Of a stretch of DNA of 58,585 nt, positions 10,261 to 35,109 are shown piece after piece. Within the stretch, counting starts at the first letter, position 1, and every line of letters starts with the position of its first letter. This DNA is from Nitrospinaceae bacterium (lineage in GTDB: Bacteria > Nitrospinota > Nitrospinia > Nitrospinales > Nitrospinaceae), in the NCBI GenBank assembly GCA_029261395.1, contig JAJDBJ010000021.1:1-58585 (forward strand). Reading direction: 5' to 3'. A program made the translations under genes and the position numbers. The notes beneath the pieces are model-generated. The model was not told the DNA's origin. It searched no databases and saw nothing but the letters and a program-made list of their open reading frames with translations.

Positions 10261-11049
10261 ATGAGCCACACCCCTGACACGGCATTCAAAAAACTAATCG
10301 ATATCGTCAATACCCTGATGAGCGAAAACGGGTGCCCGTGGGACCGCGTGCAGACGCGCGAATCGTTAAAACCCTATCTCGTCGAAGAGGCTTACGAAAC
10401 ATTGGAAGCGCTCGACAGCAACCAGCCGGAAAAGATCAAAGATGAGTTGGGCGACCTGCTGTATCAGGTTCTGTTTCACGCCAAGATTTCCGAGAATCAG
10501 AAAGAGTTCGATATCACCGGAGTGATCGACAACCTCGCCGAAAAAATGGTACGGCGTCACCCGCATGTATTTGAAGATAGTAAAGCAGACACACCGGATG
10601 CGGTGATCAATCAATGGGAGCACATCAAGATCAGCGAGAAGGCCAACCGGGACCACAAGTCAGTACTCGACAGCGTACCGAAAAACCTGCCGTCCCTCGC
10701 CCGCGCGCAAAAACTCACCAAAAAAGCCGCCAAGCACGGTTTCGACTGGCAAGAGATCAAAGACGTGTTCGCCAAACTCGATGAAGAAGTCGCCGAGTTC
10801 AAGGAAGCGGTGCTGAGTGGTAAAGATGAAAACATCACCGACGAACTGGGCGACATCCTGTTCGTGCTGGTGAACATCGCGCGGCACAAAAAGATCGATG
10901 CCGAAGAAGCGTTACGCGGCACCAACAACAAGTTCATCCAACGCTTCCAATACATCGAAGCGCAAGTCGAACAATCCGGCAAAGCCCTCAAAGATACTCC
11001 CCTTGACACACTCGAACACTACTGGCAGGAAGCCAAGCGGAAAGGTTAA
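10261..11049 (+). CDS. mazG: Nucleoside triphosphate pyrophosphohydrolase MazG
   Basis: A 262-aa all-alpha NTP pyrophosphohydrolase with two MazG domains. The first carries CPWDRVQTRESL followed by EEAYETLEAL and DELGDLLYQVLFHA; the second carries DEEVAEFKEAV and DELGDILFVLVNIARH. The repeated E-x-x-E...E-x-x-D sets bind Mg2+. MazG hydrolyses NTPs or aberrant dNTPs and can lower (p)ppGpp. It is transcribed with hemW, with a 1-nt gap. Its last bases overlap the convergent hypothetical gene at 11046. Confidence 0.93.
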   Translation: MSHTPDTAFKKLIDIVNTLMSENGCPWDRVQTRESLKPYLVEEAYETLEALDSNQPEKIKDELGDLLYQVLFHAKISENQKEFDITGVIDNLAEKMVRRHPHVFEDSKADTPDAVINQWEHIKISEKANRDHKSVLDSVPKNLPSLARAQKLTKKAAKHGFDWQEIKDVFAKLDEEVAEFKEAVLSGKDENITDELGDILFVLVNIARHKKIDAEEALRGTNNKFIQRFQYIEAQVEQSGKALKDTPLDTLEHYWQEAKRKG

Positions 11050-11573
11050 TCAATATCCAAACTTTTATTTTTTAATGCCGCAACTCGGGTATCAATTAGA
11101 GAAAGTTGGTTTTCCCACCATTCTATCGCTTCCTTCACTATATCTCTCTGATCTTTACCTTTAAAAGGACCATCGGTAATTTTATAATCATATTCAACTG
11201 TCCCTTCACCAATTTGTCCTATCTGCTCAAATTTTTTATTTAAAACCACTGTGGGCACATTAATGGTTACATTCACTCCGGCTCGAAATCTATATTCCTT
11301 CAAAATTAAGTTTCGATCATCCTCAATAAATCCCCAAAAAATCTCTGGTGTTGGTTTTGATGTTTTTATGGCTTTCCACCATTCAGATATGACTTTTTTC
11401 ATTTCAGTACTTATCCCTGAATCAACCTTGTCTAAAACATGCCCCACGGAACGAAGTAAGGTTATGGTAGCTACCCATATTAATCGCCATTTTATCCCCT
11501 TGGGTTCATCATAAAGGTCATCCAGAGCATTCTTACAATCTTTTAAAACTATTCTGGCTAGATTTGTTATGAT
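11046..11573 (-). pseudogene. Conserved hypothetical protein, probably 5'-truncated
   Basis: From the GTG at 11447 a 133-aa product is possible (starts GHVLDKVDSGISTEMKKV). The same frame stays open upstream to the TGA at 11576-11574 and reads LVLDKVD-like context: LDDLYDEPKGIKWRLIWV, then ATITLLRSVGHVLDK. That extension looks like real coding sequence of the same domain, but contains no ATG, GTG or TTG before the internal GTG. The 5' end has therefore probably been lost, or a rare start is used. The gene is more AT-rich than mazG beside it, and the repeat-rich gap beyond supports local rearrangement. Function unknown. Confidence 0.5.
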
Positions 11574-11576
11574 TCA

Positions 11577-11895
11577 ATAATACTACACAAGGACCGGAAC
11601 TGTCATTTTGAGCAAACGCAGGTGGCTAAGAATATATGGTTTTAGTGGTGTTGCCTTCGACAGGCTCAGGGTGACATTAAGGAGGAATCCCCCTAACCCC
11701 CTCCTTCGACAAGCTCAGGACAATTTTTACAAGAGGGAGGCGGAGTACCTCCGCTAGCAACTAAAACCCAGATTCTTCGTCGCCGATGGCTCCTCAGAAT
11801 GACAGTTATTACTCAATTTGTCATCCTGAGCGTTAGCGAAGGATCTGGGTTTTCTCTAAGCCCTCTGCGGTAAAAATTTTTCCTGACTGCATATT
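11577..11895. repeat. Repeat-rich intergenic region with large imperfect hairpin
   Basis: It contains several dispersed-repeat fragments of the 'TTCGACAGGCTCAGG' and 'CATCCTGAGCG...AGCGAAGGAT' types. At 11763-11853 two copies lie head to head: AAAACCCAGATTCTTCG (11763) is the imperfect inverse of CGAAGGATCTGGGTTTT (11837), and CTCAGAATGACA of TGTCATCCTGAG. At 11732-11755 lies a 24-bp unit that recurs at 12897-12920. No gene is seen. Confidence 0.7.
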
Positions 11896-12735
11896 TCAAA
11901 ACATCCCTTCCGGAGATTGCACTCTCCGGCCCTGGAACAGGGGCTTCTCAATCACAAACTTCCATTCCGGGTTGAGGGCGACGTCCCGCAATCCACCGAG
12001 CAGTTGGTCGAAAGTCTCCGCGTCAGCATCGGCAAACTCAAAGTAGGTGATGAAGTCCTGATCGCCGCCCATGAATCGGGAGTGGTACAGTTTGCGGAAA
12101 ACTTTGTTGATGTACTTGAAGCCTATGGCGTTATGGCCGAGTTGCTGCGGGCTGAACACTTCCGGATGCTTGAAAAAATACTGCTCCCGTTTTTCCTGAG
12201 GGAGCCCCCACCATTCGGCGGTCTTCGACAGGGGGAGCACGACGGCGTTGGGCTGGTCTCGTCCTGTGCCGCGCGTCGGCGCCTGGTCTTTCAGCCGCTG
12301 GAGCGTGGCGGTATCCGTGTAATTCAACTGGCCCGTCACGCCGAATTGGGTTTCGATTTCAAAATAGGTGTTCAACTCACCCGACACCTCCCGAATGATT
12401 TTTTCGATGGTCTGGCGGTTCAGGGATTCCACCCGGATCATTCCTATCGGCTTGCGTGACACCGGCTGGCCATTGAGCGTATAAGAAACGGTCTTGTGAA
12501 ACTGGATGGTCTCAACTGCGCCTTTCTCAGGAGTGAAATCGTTGGAAAAGTTTCCGGAAGCCTGCTGGATGTGTTCGGAGAGTTTTTGTTTGTCCAGTTG
12601 GGACAAAACAATGCCAGGCTTGGGAAACAGAGACATAAACCCGACCCACTGGCCCTGGACAGCGTGCACACTTCCCGCCCAAAAGATAAGAAGGATACCT
12701 GCTGATAGGACAAAGCCTAATTTCTTTAAAATCAT
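11896..12735 (-). CDS. cld: Chlorite dismutase-family haem protein, exported
   Basis: A 279-aa protein with a Sec signal peptide (MILKKLGFVLSAGILLIFW, cleavage near SVHA). The C-terminal half carries the clade I chlorite dismutase pattern: TAEWWGLPQEKRE, then H201 and R214 exactly 13 residues apart (GHNAIGFKYINKVFR), then KLYHS and DFITYFEFAD. In known Clds the proximal haem His and the distal catalytic Arg have this spacing. The N-terminal half is divergent. The ATG at 12735 has GGAGG 5 nt upstream. Cld converts chlorite to chloride and O2, and occurs in nitrite oxidisers, where nitrite oxidoreductase can reduce chlorate. Activity here is inference. The gene stands alone, bracketed by copies of a 24-bp repeat. 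Confidence 0.8.
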   Translation of the reverse strand: MILKKLGFVLSAGILLIFWAGSVHAVQGQWVGFMSLFPKPGIVLSQLDKQKLSEHIQQASGNFSNDFTPEKGAVETIQFHKTVSYTLNGQPVSRKPIGMIRVESLNRQTIEKIIREVSGELNTYFEIETQFGVTGQLNYTDTATLQRLKDQAPTRGTGRDQPNAVVLPLSKTAEWWGLPQEKREQYFFKHPEVFSPQQLGHNAIGFKYINKVFRKLYHSRFMGGDQDFITYFEFADADAETFDQLLGGLRDVALNPEWKFVIEKPLFQGRRVQSPEGMF

Positions 12736-13002
12736 GTGCGCCTCCAAACAAAAAATTTATATATTAGCGATTGTACCCACATCAAACTCAGTTTTCAAAG
12801 GGGCAAACACTTATGCAACATGCATGACTCCTTTACGGGCTTCTCTGTGGGCTCTGTACCCTCTGCGGTGACAAATCCCCCCGGTCCCCTTCAAGAAGAG
12901 GGAGGCGGAGTACCTCCGCTGGAAATGTTTTCCCTGCTTCTTTTCGATTTTATCGGTGTTTATCTGTGTTCATCGGTGGATAAAACTGCGTGTGCCGCAG
13001 GC
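12736..13002. repeat. Intergenic region between cld and csp with repeat unit
   Basis: The gap upstream of cld holds the second copy (12897-12920) of the 24-bp unit found downstream of cld at 11732-11755. The unit includes the palindrome GCGGAG-TAC-CTCCGC. Other fragments shared with the downstream gap are CTCTGCGGT and a run of 'aatcccccc'. No coding sequence is apparent. Confidence 0.55.
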
Positions 13003-13058: not shown

Positions 13059-13259
13059 TTACTTGGGAACGACGTTGGAGGCTTGCGGGCCTTTTTGCCC
13101 ATCAGTCTTTTCAAACTCGACCGTCTGGCCTTCCGTCAGGGTTTTGAATCCTTCCGATTGAATTTCTGAGAAGTGAACGAAAACATCTTCGCCATCTTCA
13201 CCTTCAATAAATCCATATCCTTTGCTGTCGTTGAACCACTTTACTTTTCCTACTGACAT
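13059..13259 (-). CDS. Cold-shock protein (CspA family), copy 1
   Basis: A 66-aa OB-fold protein. RNP1 is KGYGFIE and RNP2 is DVFVHFSEI, the nucleic-acid-binding motifs of CspA. It is an RNA chaperone in the cytoplasm. It differs from the second copy at only a few positions (for example VGKVKWFND versus LGKVKWFNE). AAGGAG lies just upstream, and a hairpin (GAGCG/CGCTC) sits before that ribosome site. The 350-bp upstream gap contains an apparently separate structured transcript with its own terminator. Confidence 0.95.
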
Positions 13260-13377
13260 AGCTTGTCGCGCTCCTTAAAATGAGCGGGAAAACGCTCGAG
13301 ACAAAACCCAAAACCGCATTCCCAGATTTTTCGTAAGACGGTCTTCAAAGACCTCCGCCGGACCGTTGCCCTTCCCT

Positions 13378-13613: not shown

Positions 13614-13814
13614 TTATTTTGGAACTACGTTCGAGGCTTGCGGACCTTTTTTCCCCTCGGTCTTTTCGAATTCGACCTCCTGGCCCTCTTTCAGCGTTTT
13701 GAATCCTTCCGATTGGATTTCCGAGAAGTGTACAAACACATCTTCGCCATCTTCGGACTCAATAAAACCATACCCTTTGCTTTCGTTGAACCACTTAACT
13801 TTACCTAGAGACAT
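13614..13814 (-). CDS. Cold-shock protein (CspA family), copy 2
   Basis: A 66-aa CspA-type OB-fold RNA chaperone with RNP1 KGYGFIE and RNP2 DVFVHFSEI. It is a near-identical tandem paralogue of the 13059-13259 gene. GAGGAG lies just upstream of the ATG. The two leaders share the block TCGCGCTCCT near the start codon, which suggests that the duplication included the 5' UTR. The upstream 290 bp has no gene but contains a strong 9-3-9 palindrome at 13979-13999. Confidence 0.95.
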
Positions 13815-13978
13815 ACCAATCGCGCTCCTCAGATTCAGCGGGAATGCGTTCCATAGGGTACCGAAATCGCTTTCCCCAGTTGTCTATCAGGCGATTACTG
13901 GCCCCATCCCCGCAAAGACCCTGCCTGGGCCCCACTTTCCGGATTGCCGTGACCACTACCACCCCTCTTTCGCACGCG

Positions 13979-14433: not shown

Positions 14434-14847
14434 TCATTCCTCCTCCTTTGCCGGAGCCAGTACAAAATACAGATTGCCAGCCATGATCAACAGCCCTGCC
14501 CCGGTCATCAAGGCGAATCCGACAAATGCGGCGTGCAGGATTCCGCCGGACCACAATCCTCCGGCAAGATGAGTCGAGGCCATGCCCAGCAAACCGGTGT
14601 TGTGCAATATGAAATGATACTTAACGCCGCCCGGCCAGGGAACGGGGCGGGAGTTGAAACGGGGAAGCACATGGTACGCCACCCCGGCGATAAACATGGT
14701 CATGAATCCCAGCAGGTTCAGGTGAATATGAACGAAGCGCAATCGTTCGCTCCACTCCGGCTGAGTGCCGATCACCACTCCCATCACTACTCCAAGTGCC
14801 AGATAAATCAACGCCATCTTGGTAAAACGTTTTGCCCAAATTTCCAT
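14434..14847 (-). CDS. Four-helix membrane protein related to haem-copper oxidase subunit I
   Basis: A 137-aa protein with four predicted membrane helices. Helix 2 carries VHIHLNLLGFMTMFIAGVAY followed by HVLPRF, similar to the haem-ligating helices of cbb3-type CcoN and NO reductase. Histidines fall at 40, 42, 59, 78, 82, 93 and 105, so a haem or metal site is possible. It is far too short to be a full oxidase subunit. The ATG at 14847 (AAGG just upstream) lies 4 bp after the glycosyltransferase stop; the frame is open upstream, but that extension overlaps the neighbour. Confidence 0.6.
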   Translation of the reverse strand: MEIWAKRFTKMALIYLALGVVMGVVIGTQPEWSERLRFVHIHLNLLGFMTMFIAGVAYHVLPRFNSRPVPWPGGVKYHFILHNTGLLGMASTHLAGGLWSGGILHAAFVGFALMTGAGLLIMAGNLYFVLAPAKEEE

Positions 14848-14851
14848 TCTG

Positions 14852-15994
14852 TTACCTTTCCGGTTGTGAATAAGTTCGTCCGCGCCATTCGGCTCTACCG
14901 CGGACCAATACATGGATCATCGAATTGATCATGATGGCGGCCATGACCAGAGCTCCCAAAGGAAACAGCAGAGCATAATACTTTTCCAGGTTCAGTTCAT
15001 GGCATAGAGCCCATTTCGTAATCAACACCAGCCCCAGCCCGGCCAGGGCCATTGCCTGCCATCCCGGGCCCGACCCCACCCACAGGTGAACCCCTACCAT
15101 GAGCCACGGAGTCACCACGAATCCCAATACGCAAAGGATATAATAAAACGTTTTGAATATCGATTTTTTCATCGCCAGGAAAACATTTTTGCGCCAACCG
15201 ATCCATATTTCCTGGAACGAATGGTACATGCGGATGGTATAAATTTTCCGGGCGTCGGCAATCATGATGTGGGCTCCGGATTGTTTCACCAGACGCGCCA
15301 TGCCGATATCCTCCAGAATGGCCTGCTTGAGCGGTTCATGGCCTCCCACCCAGTCATACACTTCCCTCCGTAGCATGATAAAAGCGCCGACACCCATGGC
15401 GTCCGGTGATTCCGGATCATTCACTTTTTTGAATCGCGTGAGGGCCGCGATGAACGCGAAAATGACCGGTTGCACCACTCGTTCCCAGAACGAACCAAAC
15501 TCGGCGCCGGGCAGAAGGGAGATCATGTCCAACTGCTGTTTCTGCATGAGGTGAACTGCAGTCGTCAAGGCGTACCGCTGGAACACGGGGTCGGCATCGG
15601 TGAACAGGAGTAGTTCGCCCCGCGCCTTGTGTGTGGCCTGATTCAGGGCGAAGGGTTTACCGTACCAATCGGCAGGCAATGCCGCACCTTGAATGGCGAT
15701 CAAATTGGCATGCCGTTCCTGCAACGATTTAATAATACGCGGCGTGTTATCGGTAGAGTTGTCATCGACCACGATCACTTCAAAGTGAGGATAGTTCTGG
15801 TTCAGCAACGAGGTGAGACAGGCTTCGATATCCCGTTCCTCGTTGCGTGCCGGGACACAAACCGAAACAAAAGGACACACGGGCAGGGGGCCGGCCGCAG
15901 GCTCGACCTTGACCAGAAACCAGGTATTGATCGTTAAATAGACCACGATCGCAATAATGAAAATAAACTGTAGAACGGTAAGAAAGATCAGCAT
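14852..15994 (-). CDS. Membrane-associated family 2 glycosyltransferase
   Basis: A 380-aa GT-A enzyme. It has an N-terminal membrane helix, then SVCVPARNEERDI and VVDDNSTDNT (nucleotide-sugar binding), TDAD (the DxD metal site) and LEDIGMARLVKQ (catalytic ED region). Three or four membrane helices follow, and the end reads AEWRGRTY, as in CrtQ/CruC-like glycosyltransferases that act on lipid or carotenoid acceptors. The acceptor is unknown. The gene heads a three-gene set with the 4-TM protein and TfoX. Confidence 0.85.
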   Translation of the reverse strand: MLIFLTVLQFIFIIAIVVYLTINTWFLVKVEPAAGPLPVCPFVSVCVPARNEERDIEACLTSLLNQNYPHFEVIVVDDNSTDNTPRIIKSLQERHANLIAIQGAALPADWYGKPFALNQATHKARGELLLFTDADPVFQRYALTTAVHLMQKQQLDMISLLPGAEFGSFWERVVQPVIFAFIAALTRFKKVNDPESPDAMGVGAFIMLRREVYDWVGGHEPLKQAILEDIGMARLVKQSGAHIMIADARKIYTIRMYHSFQEIWIGWRKNVFLAMKKSIFKTFYYILCVLGFVVTPWLMVGVHLWVGSGPGWQAMALAGLGLVLITKWALCHELNLEKYYALLFPLGALVMAAIMINSMIHVLVRGRAEWRGRTYSQPER

Positions 15995-33669: not shown

Positions 33670-35109
33670 TCATTTCCGGCGCGGTCGCGCCATCAAGCGT
33701 TCGATCTCTGCCACCCGCTTCGGTATCCCTTTAGATAAATTGGCACACCCGGTCTTGGTAATCAAGAGATTGTCTTCAATCCGAATACCGATTTCCTCAT
33801 CGTAAACCTTGCCTTTGTGCTTCCAGCGGAACCGGCCATAAAGACCCGGCTCGTTGCTGATCAACCATCCCGGCTTCATCGGCTCGACCCCGTAATCACG
33901 GAACGGATCACCATCGTGCTCCTGTTCGCCGATCAGATGGCTCACGCCATGTGGGCGGCCCTTGTATTCCATTTTCGATTTGCCGCCCAGCTTATAAAAT
34001 TTCTCATCCAACCCTTTCTGCAGAGTTTCCCAACACGCATCATTCAAATCCACAATGGGCACTCCGGCGCATGCCATCCCCTCCACCGCCAACTGCGCTT
34101 CCAGAACGATCTCGTATAAAACTTTCTGCATCGGATTGAATTTCCCCGAGGCGGGAACCGTACGGGAAATATCAGCATGCATGGTCATCCAACGCACACC
34201 AAAATCCATCAGCACCAGTTCCCCTTTTTCGATGGGGTCGTCGTTTTTCATATAGTGCAATACAGTCGCATTATGACCGGACGCAATGATGCCCGGAAAG
34301 CTGAGACCATAAGGCGAGTCCATCAACATCTGCCCCTCAAGAAACCCCTGTAGTCGGCATTCATTGTCGAACTTCCTGAAATTCCGCAAGGTTTCCTTGA
34401 ATGCCTTGCCGGTGATCTCCTGCGCCTTGAGGGTGTTGGCAACATCGTAAGCGTCCAGCGGCAGTCGCAAATCAAAGTGTGACTGCATGATATTGCTGAG
34501 GCTTCCCTTCGGCGCTTTCACTTTCTTCAGCAGGCTTTCAATCCTCTTTTTGAAATTCCAGTTATGATCGGATTTGATGGTGTGTCGGGTACCGGTGCGC
34601 ATACTTTCGAGCCAGAAGGTGCCGACCTCTTTCTTTTTCCGTTTCGCTAAACGTTTTTTGAAAATCTCATCGAAGTCGTCGATATCCTGCACATCCTTGA
34701 TCCCGGTCACCCGCTTCACTTCGCGAATGCTGGCTGGATCGCCCACGCCGAACCGGATCCCATCCCAGAACTCCTTACGGGGGTCCTTCCTTTTGACAAA
34801 CAAAATCTCGTCGGACTCTTTGGATCCGGGGTCCAGCAGTAATAACACTTCCGACTGGTTGACGCCGGTCAGATACATGACCGTCGGCTCCTGATAGGTG
34901 GGGGCATAAGCGTAGGTCCAGGTCGTCTCCGCTCCCGGCCCATACGGCACGCCGGTCAGCACCATCAACCGGTTTTCTTTTTTCATCAACTTGCGGCGAC
35001 GTTCCCGGAAACGACTTTTCGCGCGGCTCCCTGCGCCTCCGTCGCGGAATATGCCGGAGTATACTTTCTTGCCCTTTTTAACCGTGGAACCAGTGGATTT
35101 CACATGCAT
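33670..35109 (-). CDS. Xaa-Pro aminopeptidase-like M24 peptidase (PepP type)
   Basis: A 479-aa protein with an aminopeptidase P N-terminal domain (about 45-210) and an M24 catalytic domain. Metal ligands: Asp in LMDFGVRWMTMHADISRT (two Asp), His in RPHGVSHLIGEQEHD, Glu in ISNEPGLYG and Glu in GIRIEDNLL. It probably removes N-terminal residues before Pro. The first 40 residues are basic and are not part of the usual domain; an internal start is possible, such as the Met in RRKLMKKENRLM. Confidence 0.85.
   Translation of the reverse strand: MHVKSTGSTVKKGKKVYSGIFRDGGAGSRAKSRFRERRRKLMKKENRLMVLTGVPYGPGAETTWTYAYAPTYQEPTVMYLTGVNQSEVLLLLDPGSKESDEILFVKRKDPRKEFWDGIRFGVGDPASIREVKRVTGIKDVQDIDDFDEIFKKRLAKRKKKEVGTFWLESMRTGTRHTIKSDHNWNFKKRIESLLKKVKAPKGSLSNIMQSHFDLRLPLDAYDVANTLKAQEITGKAFKETLRNFRKFDNECRLQGFLEGQMLMDSPYGLSFPGIIASGHNATVLHYMKNDDPIEKGELVLMDFGVRWMTMHADISRTVPASGKFNPMQKVLYEIVLEAQLAVEGMACAGVPIVDLNDACWETLQKGLDEKFYKLGGKSKMEYKGRPHGVSHLIGEQEHDGDPFRDYGVEPMKPGWLISNEPGLYGRFRWKHKGKVYDEEIGIRIEDNLLITKTGCANLSKGIPKRVAEIERLMARPRRK

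Follow-up and report, generated by a model that had tools for sequence, protein, structure and literature searches.

The question raised by this locus is whether a member of the Nitrospinota encodes a true chlorite dismutase (Cld), and to which part of the Cld family such a protein would belong. Clds hold ferric haem b on a proximal histidine, with an arginine on the distal side, and convert chlorite to chloride and O2 (PMC7931450, PMC4973843). The literature on 'chlorite dismutase' in marine Nitrospina is confused: the 'Cld' of oxygen-minimum-zone Nitrospina has leucine in place of the arginine and was renamed Cld-like in a published correction (PMC8114937, PMC8319166), and chlorite dismutase reappears in a later paper as part of the core of the genomes compared (PMC11373643). 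The locus described here separates two proteins cleanly. It lies in a stretch of 58,585 nucleotides (the window), contig C21 of a Nitrospinaceae genome of 2.94 Mb that is 97% complete. The protein encoded in the window is probably a haem b chlorite dismutase (chlorite:O2 lyase) that is exported by the Sec route and falls in the long, '2b'-like branch of lineage 2, as judged from its sequence and a structural model.

The open reading frame at this position is a real gene, given its Shine-Dalgarno site, its signal peptide, its matches to PF06778 and the Protein Data Bank (PDB), and full-length orthologues beyond chance. The gene and the signals at its 5' end are as follows.

11896..12735, minus strand: cld-type gene, 279-aa precursor, ATG at 12735-12733, stop included
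12741..12745, minus strand: Shine-Dalgarno GGAGG, 5 nt before the cld ATG, read from the sequence
12770..12798, minus strand: sigma-70-like promoter TTGAAA-17-TACAAT, 10/12, a consensus match only
12661..12735, minus strand: predicted signal peptide, residues 1-25 (MILKKLGFVLSAGILLIFWAGSVHA), Sec type, no twin arginine and no lipobox cysteine at +1

The N-terminus, as read from the sequence, consists of KK, an uncharged hydrophobic core (LGFVLSAGILLIFW) and VHA ahead of residue 26. Comparable signal-type N-termini were present in all nine orthologues examined, and none of five relatives examined from beyond the clade had this combination of features (0/5). The window protein is thus very probably a Sec-exported protein by prediction, as are its orthologues.

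Membership of the Cld family was examined with profiles, sequence searches and a predicted structure. PF06778 (Chlor_dismutase) matches residues 129-271 (29.7 bits against a cut-off of 25, E 6e-7; Pfam), and no NCBIfam or PHROGs profile matched the protein. Searches of the PDB with phmmer gave E 3e-14 to the Cyanothece Cld and 4e-10 to the Nitrospira defluvii Cld over residues 133-262, the best matches being lineage-2a Clds; the sequence matches above E 1 were Clds or Cld-like proteins and nothing else. An AF2 model of the mature chain as a monomer, built from 63 aligned sequences, reached a mean pLDDT of 95.3 and a pTM of 0.91. Its topology is beta-alpha-beta-beta-alpha-beta, twice, which is the double ferredoxin-like (dimeric alpha+beta barrel) fold. 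The earlier note had named this fold as the check on its assignment, and the model has it, with Clds as the best Foldseek matches in the PDB. The top E-values belong to lineage 1 (5a13, E 2e-14, TM 0.71 by query), and TM reached 0.84 by target with the Cyanothece Cld. The two domains are placed as follows.

12330..12660, minus strand: first (N-terminal) ferredoxin-like domain, approximately residues 26-135, from the AF2 model and an hhalign alignment to lineage 1 starting at residue 25
11899..12329, minus strand: second (C-terminal, haem-binding) ferredoxin-like domain, approximately residues 136-279, from Pfam (129-271), phmmer (133-262) and the model

As modelled, Cld homology runs over the whole chain, the N-terminal half being a divergent first ferredoxin-like domain with the elements E5-13, H21-34, E51-62, E73-79, H82-96 and E100-108 (mature numbering). 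Foldseek matches to lineage-1 Clds cover approximately 260 alignment columns, which is both domains, and profile-profile alignment (hhalign) with lineage-1 Clds extends over residues 25-257 with a probability of 99.4%. The remark in the earlier note that this half is unlike known Clds is explained by the lack of a Pfam match there; it holds in the sense that the domain is divergent, and fails in the sense of an unrelated one, given the model, Foldseek and hhalign.

The residues tied to chlorite activity in Clds are all in place in the C-terminal domain. K171, W175, W176, H201, R214, Y231 and E233 are identical in 63 of 63 aligned relatives, and the C-terminal motifs quoted previously (AEWW, KLYHS and DFITYFE) are all found in the translation, with 13 positions from H201 to R214 (His-x12-Arg). 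The main positions are listed below.

12223..12225, minus strand: K171, proximal-side lysine, invariant
12208..12213, minus strand: W175-W176, tryptophan pair, invariant
12136..12207, minus strand: 24-residue loop from W176 to H201 (residues 177-200), similar in length to that of 2b-like Clds; lineage 1 has 13
12133..12135, minus strand: H201, predicted proximal haem ligand, 63/63, aligned with H114 of the Cyanothece Cld
12094..12096, minus strand: R214, predicted distal catalytic arginine, 63/63, aligned with R127 of the Cyanothece Cld; leucine in the HemQ-like paralogue
12037..12039, minus strand: E233, glutamate of the proximal hydrogen-bond network, invariant (63/63)

The distal arginine is conserved in functional Clds only (PMC4973843). 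In clade-2 Clds a glutamine (Q74 in Cyanothece) hydrogen-bonds the catalytic arginine (PMC7931450); its position is Ala152 in the window protein, an alanine that is invariant in the 11 family members (11/11) and frequent in the 2b-like group. Since the Q74V variant of the Cyanothece Cld is still active (PMC7931450), Ala152 is no argument against function. Taken with the signal-type N-terminus, PF06778, the PDB matches and the predicted fold, the intact residue set bears out the original proposal of an exported haem protein of the Cld family.

The identity of the protein has to be weighed against HemQ, since the genome encodes a second PF06778 protein of that kind (G000:C58, L001 1465-2412, minus strand), a HemQ-like protein of 316 aa with a fused N-terminal PCP_red domain (PF08369) that the window protein does not have. 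A strong-scoring PF06778 protein of this type is found in nearly all good-quality Nitrospinales genomes, with leucine at the catalytic arginine position in the three HemQ-like Nitrospinota proteins checked (3/3). HemQ (coproheme decarboxylase) has both the Pfam family and the fold (Foldseek) in common with the window protein, and the latter could be a coproporphyrin decarboxylase of the HemQ type, which is what the 'Cld-like' proteins of marine Nitrospina proved to be (PMC8319166). This is highly improbable: HemQ proteins, including the paralogue in the same genome, have leucine (or alanine) for the catalytic arginine and tyrosine for the second tryptophan, and no export signal was seen in them, whereas the window protein has R214, a Trp-Trp pair and a signal peptide. 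Furthermore, Clds and HemQ split in the tree at 100/99, and the role of HemQ already has a separate, nearly universal candidate in the order. A HemQ identity was rejected on residues and architecture. A different doubt concerns the substrate, as a haem protein with a Cld fold could act mainly on a periplasmic compound other than chlorite, such as peroxide, a nitrogen oxide or a halogen oxyanion of another kind. Seawater contains little chlorite, and both it and chlorate are described as present there in vanishingly small amounts (PMC8114937); no chlorine genes lie nearby, there is a crystal structure of the Cyanothece Cld with nitrite (7ou5), and the literature on Clds considers other oxyanions too (PMC4973843). 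Such a substrate is nevertheless unlikely, because the full residue set tied to chlorite activity is invariant and known Clds are highly chlorite-specific with low peroxidase activity (PMC9751292, PMC4973843). The core protein of these bacteria is the HemQ-like one with leucine for arginine, and the complete Cld active site is found in the sporadic one, which is exported and apparently transferred. This contrast offers a simple means of telling from sequence which Nitrospinota might be able to remove chlorite or obtain O2 from it.

The remaining point of identity is the lineage, which the earlier note had given as clade I. Were the window protein a true clade (lineage) 1 periplasmic Cld, it would be a pentamer like that of N. 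defluvii. Lineage-1 Clds (N. defluvii 3nn1, Dechloromonas 3q08, Magnetospirillum 5a13) are indeed similar in their export, their two full ferredoxin-like domains including the helices of the N-terminal one, the KLYHS...DFITYFE motifs and His-x12-Arg, and they head the Foldseek E-values. However, identity to them on the structure alignment is approximately 20%, and the trees separate them from the window protein. Two trees, a quick one of 88 sequences and a careful one of 57, gave the same picture: the eleven exported Nitrospinota proteins form a single clade (100/99), placed inside lineage 2 with moderate support (96 SH-aLRT in the quick tree, 84/79 in the careful tree) and beside long 2b-like Clds of Acidobacteriota, Rokubacteria, SAR202 and others (87/80). 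L015, a true lineage-1 Cld of a relative in the same class, groups with lineage 1 in the quick tree, apart from the window protein. Forcing the window clade together with lineage 1 was disfavoured in a topology test, with a p-AU of 0.086 that is above 0.05 and hence no rejection; grouping it with 2a was equally allowed (p-AU 0.44). The spacing from the tryptophan pair to the proximal histidine is an independent character that agrees with the 2b-like placement: it is 13 in lineage 1 and HemQ, 13-19 in 2a, 24-25 in all 55 of the 2b-like proteins and 24 in 8 of the 11 family members. The other three (L007, L008 and L010, spacing 13) are a subclade, more than 90% identical across three families, without the 11-residue loop. 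With the best PDB sequence matches in lineage 2a as well, a lineage-1 origin is improbable and the clade I label is not favoured.

Within lineage 2, the branch in question was already catalogued in 2022, and the window protein is probably a further member of it. Barnum & Coates split lineage 2 into 2a and 2b, predicted two 2b clades to be periplasmic, gave mean lengths of 188 (2a), 229 (2b) and 264 aa (lineage 1), and named Nitrospina gracilis as the sole cultivated 2b host (PMC9751292); the genome paper of N. gracilis nowhere mentions chlorite. The short, dimeric 2a Clds (Cyanothece 5k8z, Nitrobacter winogradskyi 3qpi, Pseudomonas 9gtj) are the closest PDB relatives by sequence and have the haem-domain K/W/W/H/R/E in common with the window protein. 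They lack the first-domain helices and are described as cytosolic (PMC7931450, PMC4973843), with a loop of 13-19 and Gln74 in Cyanothece, whereas the window protein has helices at 21-34 and 82-96 (mature numbering, model), an export signal, a loop of 24 and alanine; identity as a short 2a Cld was rejected on the helices and the signal peptide. Lineage 2b Clds (PMC9751292) resemble it in lying, in the best tree, inside lineage 2 and outside the short 2a group, in being longer than 2a, in a Nitrospina host, in the periplasmic members of two 2b clades, and in the key residues kept, and differ in the reported mean of 229 aa against a precursor of 279 (254 mature). Membership of lineage 2b is the simplest reading of the sequence, one drawn from tree, taxon and architecture rather than from placement alongside the 2b protein of N. 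gracilis. A sequence search of the PDB found no solved structure for the long lineage-2 branch, and the window protein would be a good one for the first.

The gene is sporadic, being present in 11 of 77 Nitrospinota genomes, with full-length orthologues at 45-58% identity in ten genomes besides the present one. G002 and G003, with matches that cover just the C-terminal half, are not in this count, and the tree puts the G003 protein in lineage 1. The PF06778 protein of G001 (L152) was dropped as a relative, as it lacks the His-x12-Arg pattern. Given the 11 of 77, nitrite oxidation would seem to have no need of an exported Cld. Identities between genomes are at odds with those of the HemQ-like protein: the window genome and G019 (same genus) have 46% for Cld and 89% for HemQ-like, G008 and G010 (different families) 91% and 71%, and G010 and G011 (same genus) 51% and 88%. 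Such mismatches are the pattern of horizontal transfer or replacement among Nitrospinota. Viral contigs held no relative of the window Cld, and plasmids held distant Clds only, below 38% identity among the matches listed. Other Nitrospinota or nitrite-oxidiser-labelled MAGs (L085, L087, L088 and L094, one being ODZ_NOB7a) carry a non-exported Cld of SAR202 type, which keeps the full residue set including the arginine. This sets it apart from the Cld-like proteins in the oxygen-minimum-zone MAGs already published.

A source of chlorite has been sought in nitrite oxidoreductase (NXR), which is held to turn chlorate into toxic chlorite (PMC10504367). Searching the genome with PF00384 returned three other molybdoproteins and no complete NxrA. 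The ends of contigs C43 and C9 carry the first 172-177 residues of NxrA, 95.5-95.9% identical to the 1,159-aa NxrA of G010, and both starts bear the twin-arginine signal MRLNRRKFLQ. These Tat-signal starts at two contig ends indicate that the host is very probably a nitrite oxidiser with a periplasmic NXR, at least two copies of which would have collapsed there. The presence of such an enzyme in the same genome makes NXR-made chlorite a plausible substrate source, and the earlier suggestion that a periplasmic Cld protects against it is coherent, the link itself being an indirect one. Haem loading, chlorite as the substrate, the oligomeric state and the connection with NXR are all inferred for the window protein, for which the following mechanism is proposed. 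After export, the C-terminal ferredoxin-like domain of each subunit would take up ferric haem, H201 serving as the proximal ligand and being hydrogen-bonded to E233/K171. Chlorite would enter on the open distal side of the haem, where R214 may aid Cl-O cleavage and hold the hypochlorite intermediate until hypochlorite and the ferryl oxygen recombine to Cl- and O2. The likeliest task would be the clearing of periplasmic chlorite, whether it arises from the side reduction of chlorate by NXR or is taken in from outside. It is conceivable, if doubtful, that the clade represents a structurally unseen class of Cld, combining a lineage-2 haem domain, a complete first domain, a loop ahead of the proximal histidine that is longer by 11 residues, and export. 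In Nitrospinota such a Cld could couple to periplasmic NXR (chlorate reduction, then chlorite dismutation, with O2 released where nitrite is oxidised) or have a different oxyanion of the periplasm as its substrate.

The surroundings of the gene point to a variable site. A pathway operon was looked for around the window cld and none was found; no neighbouring gene is common to the window and six orthologous contigs, or among those six, and no link to NXR or to any chlorine gene was seen in these seven neighbourhoods. The lack of neighbours in the same pathway noted at the outset thus extends to six orthologous loci. The features of the interval are as follows.

11037..12994, no strand: variable interval with cld and a 133-aa orphan ORF, 1,958 bases; unmatched sequence instead in two same-genus genomes
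11731..11777, plus strand: left copy of an imperfect direct repeat flanking cld (47 nt, 79%)
12896..12942, plus strand: right copy of the same repeat

In G016 (same genus) the flanks match at 85-89% as far as window position 11036 and again from 12995, with approximately 0.53 kb of unmatched sequence between them, and in G018 (same genus) the interval is replaced by approximately 0.44 kb of unmatched sequence. The core 19-mer of the repeats occurs exactly at these two places only in the genome. The orphan ORF (11046-11447, minus strand) has no Pfam or PHROGs match. Adjoining the interval are tandem cold-shock-protein-like genes (13059-13260 and 13614-13815, minus strand), whose 202-nt stretches are 84% identical. 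Elsewhere in the window, the sole Rfam match is CRISPR-DR45 (34535-34558, plus strand; 38.1 against a cut-off of 37), which lies inside an aminopeptidase-like ORF on the opposite strand and is probably due to chance. A 159-aa membrane protein at 14437-14913 (minus strand) gives a weak, below-cutoff match to PF00115 (cytochrome oxidase subunit I) and is far shorter than that family.
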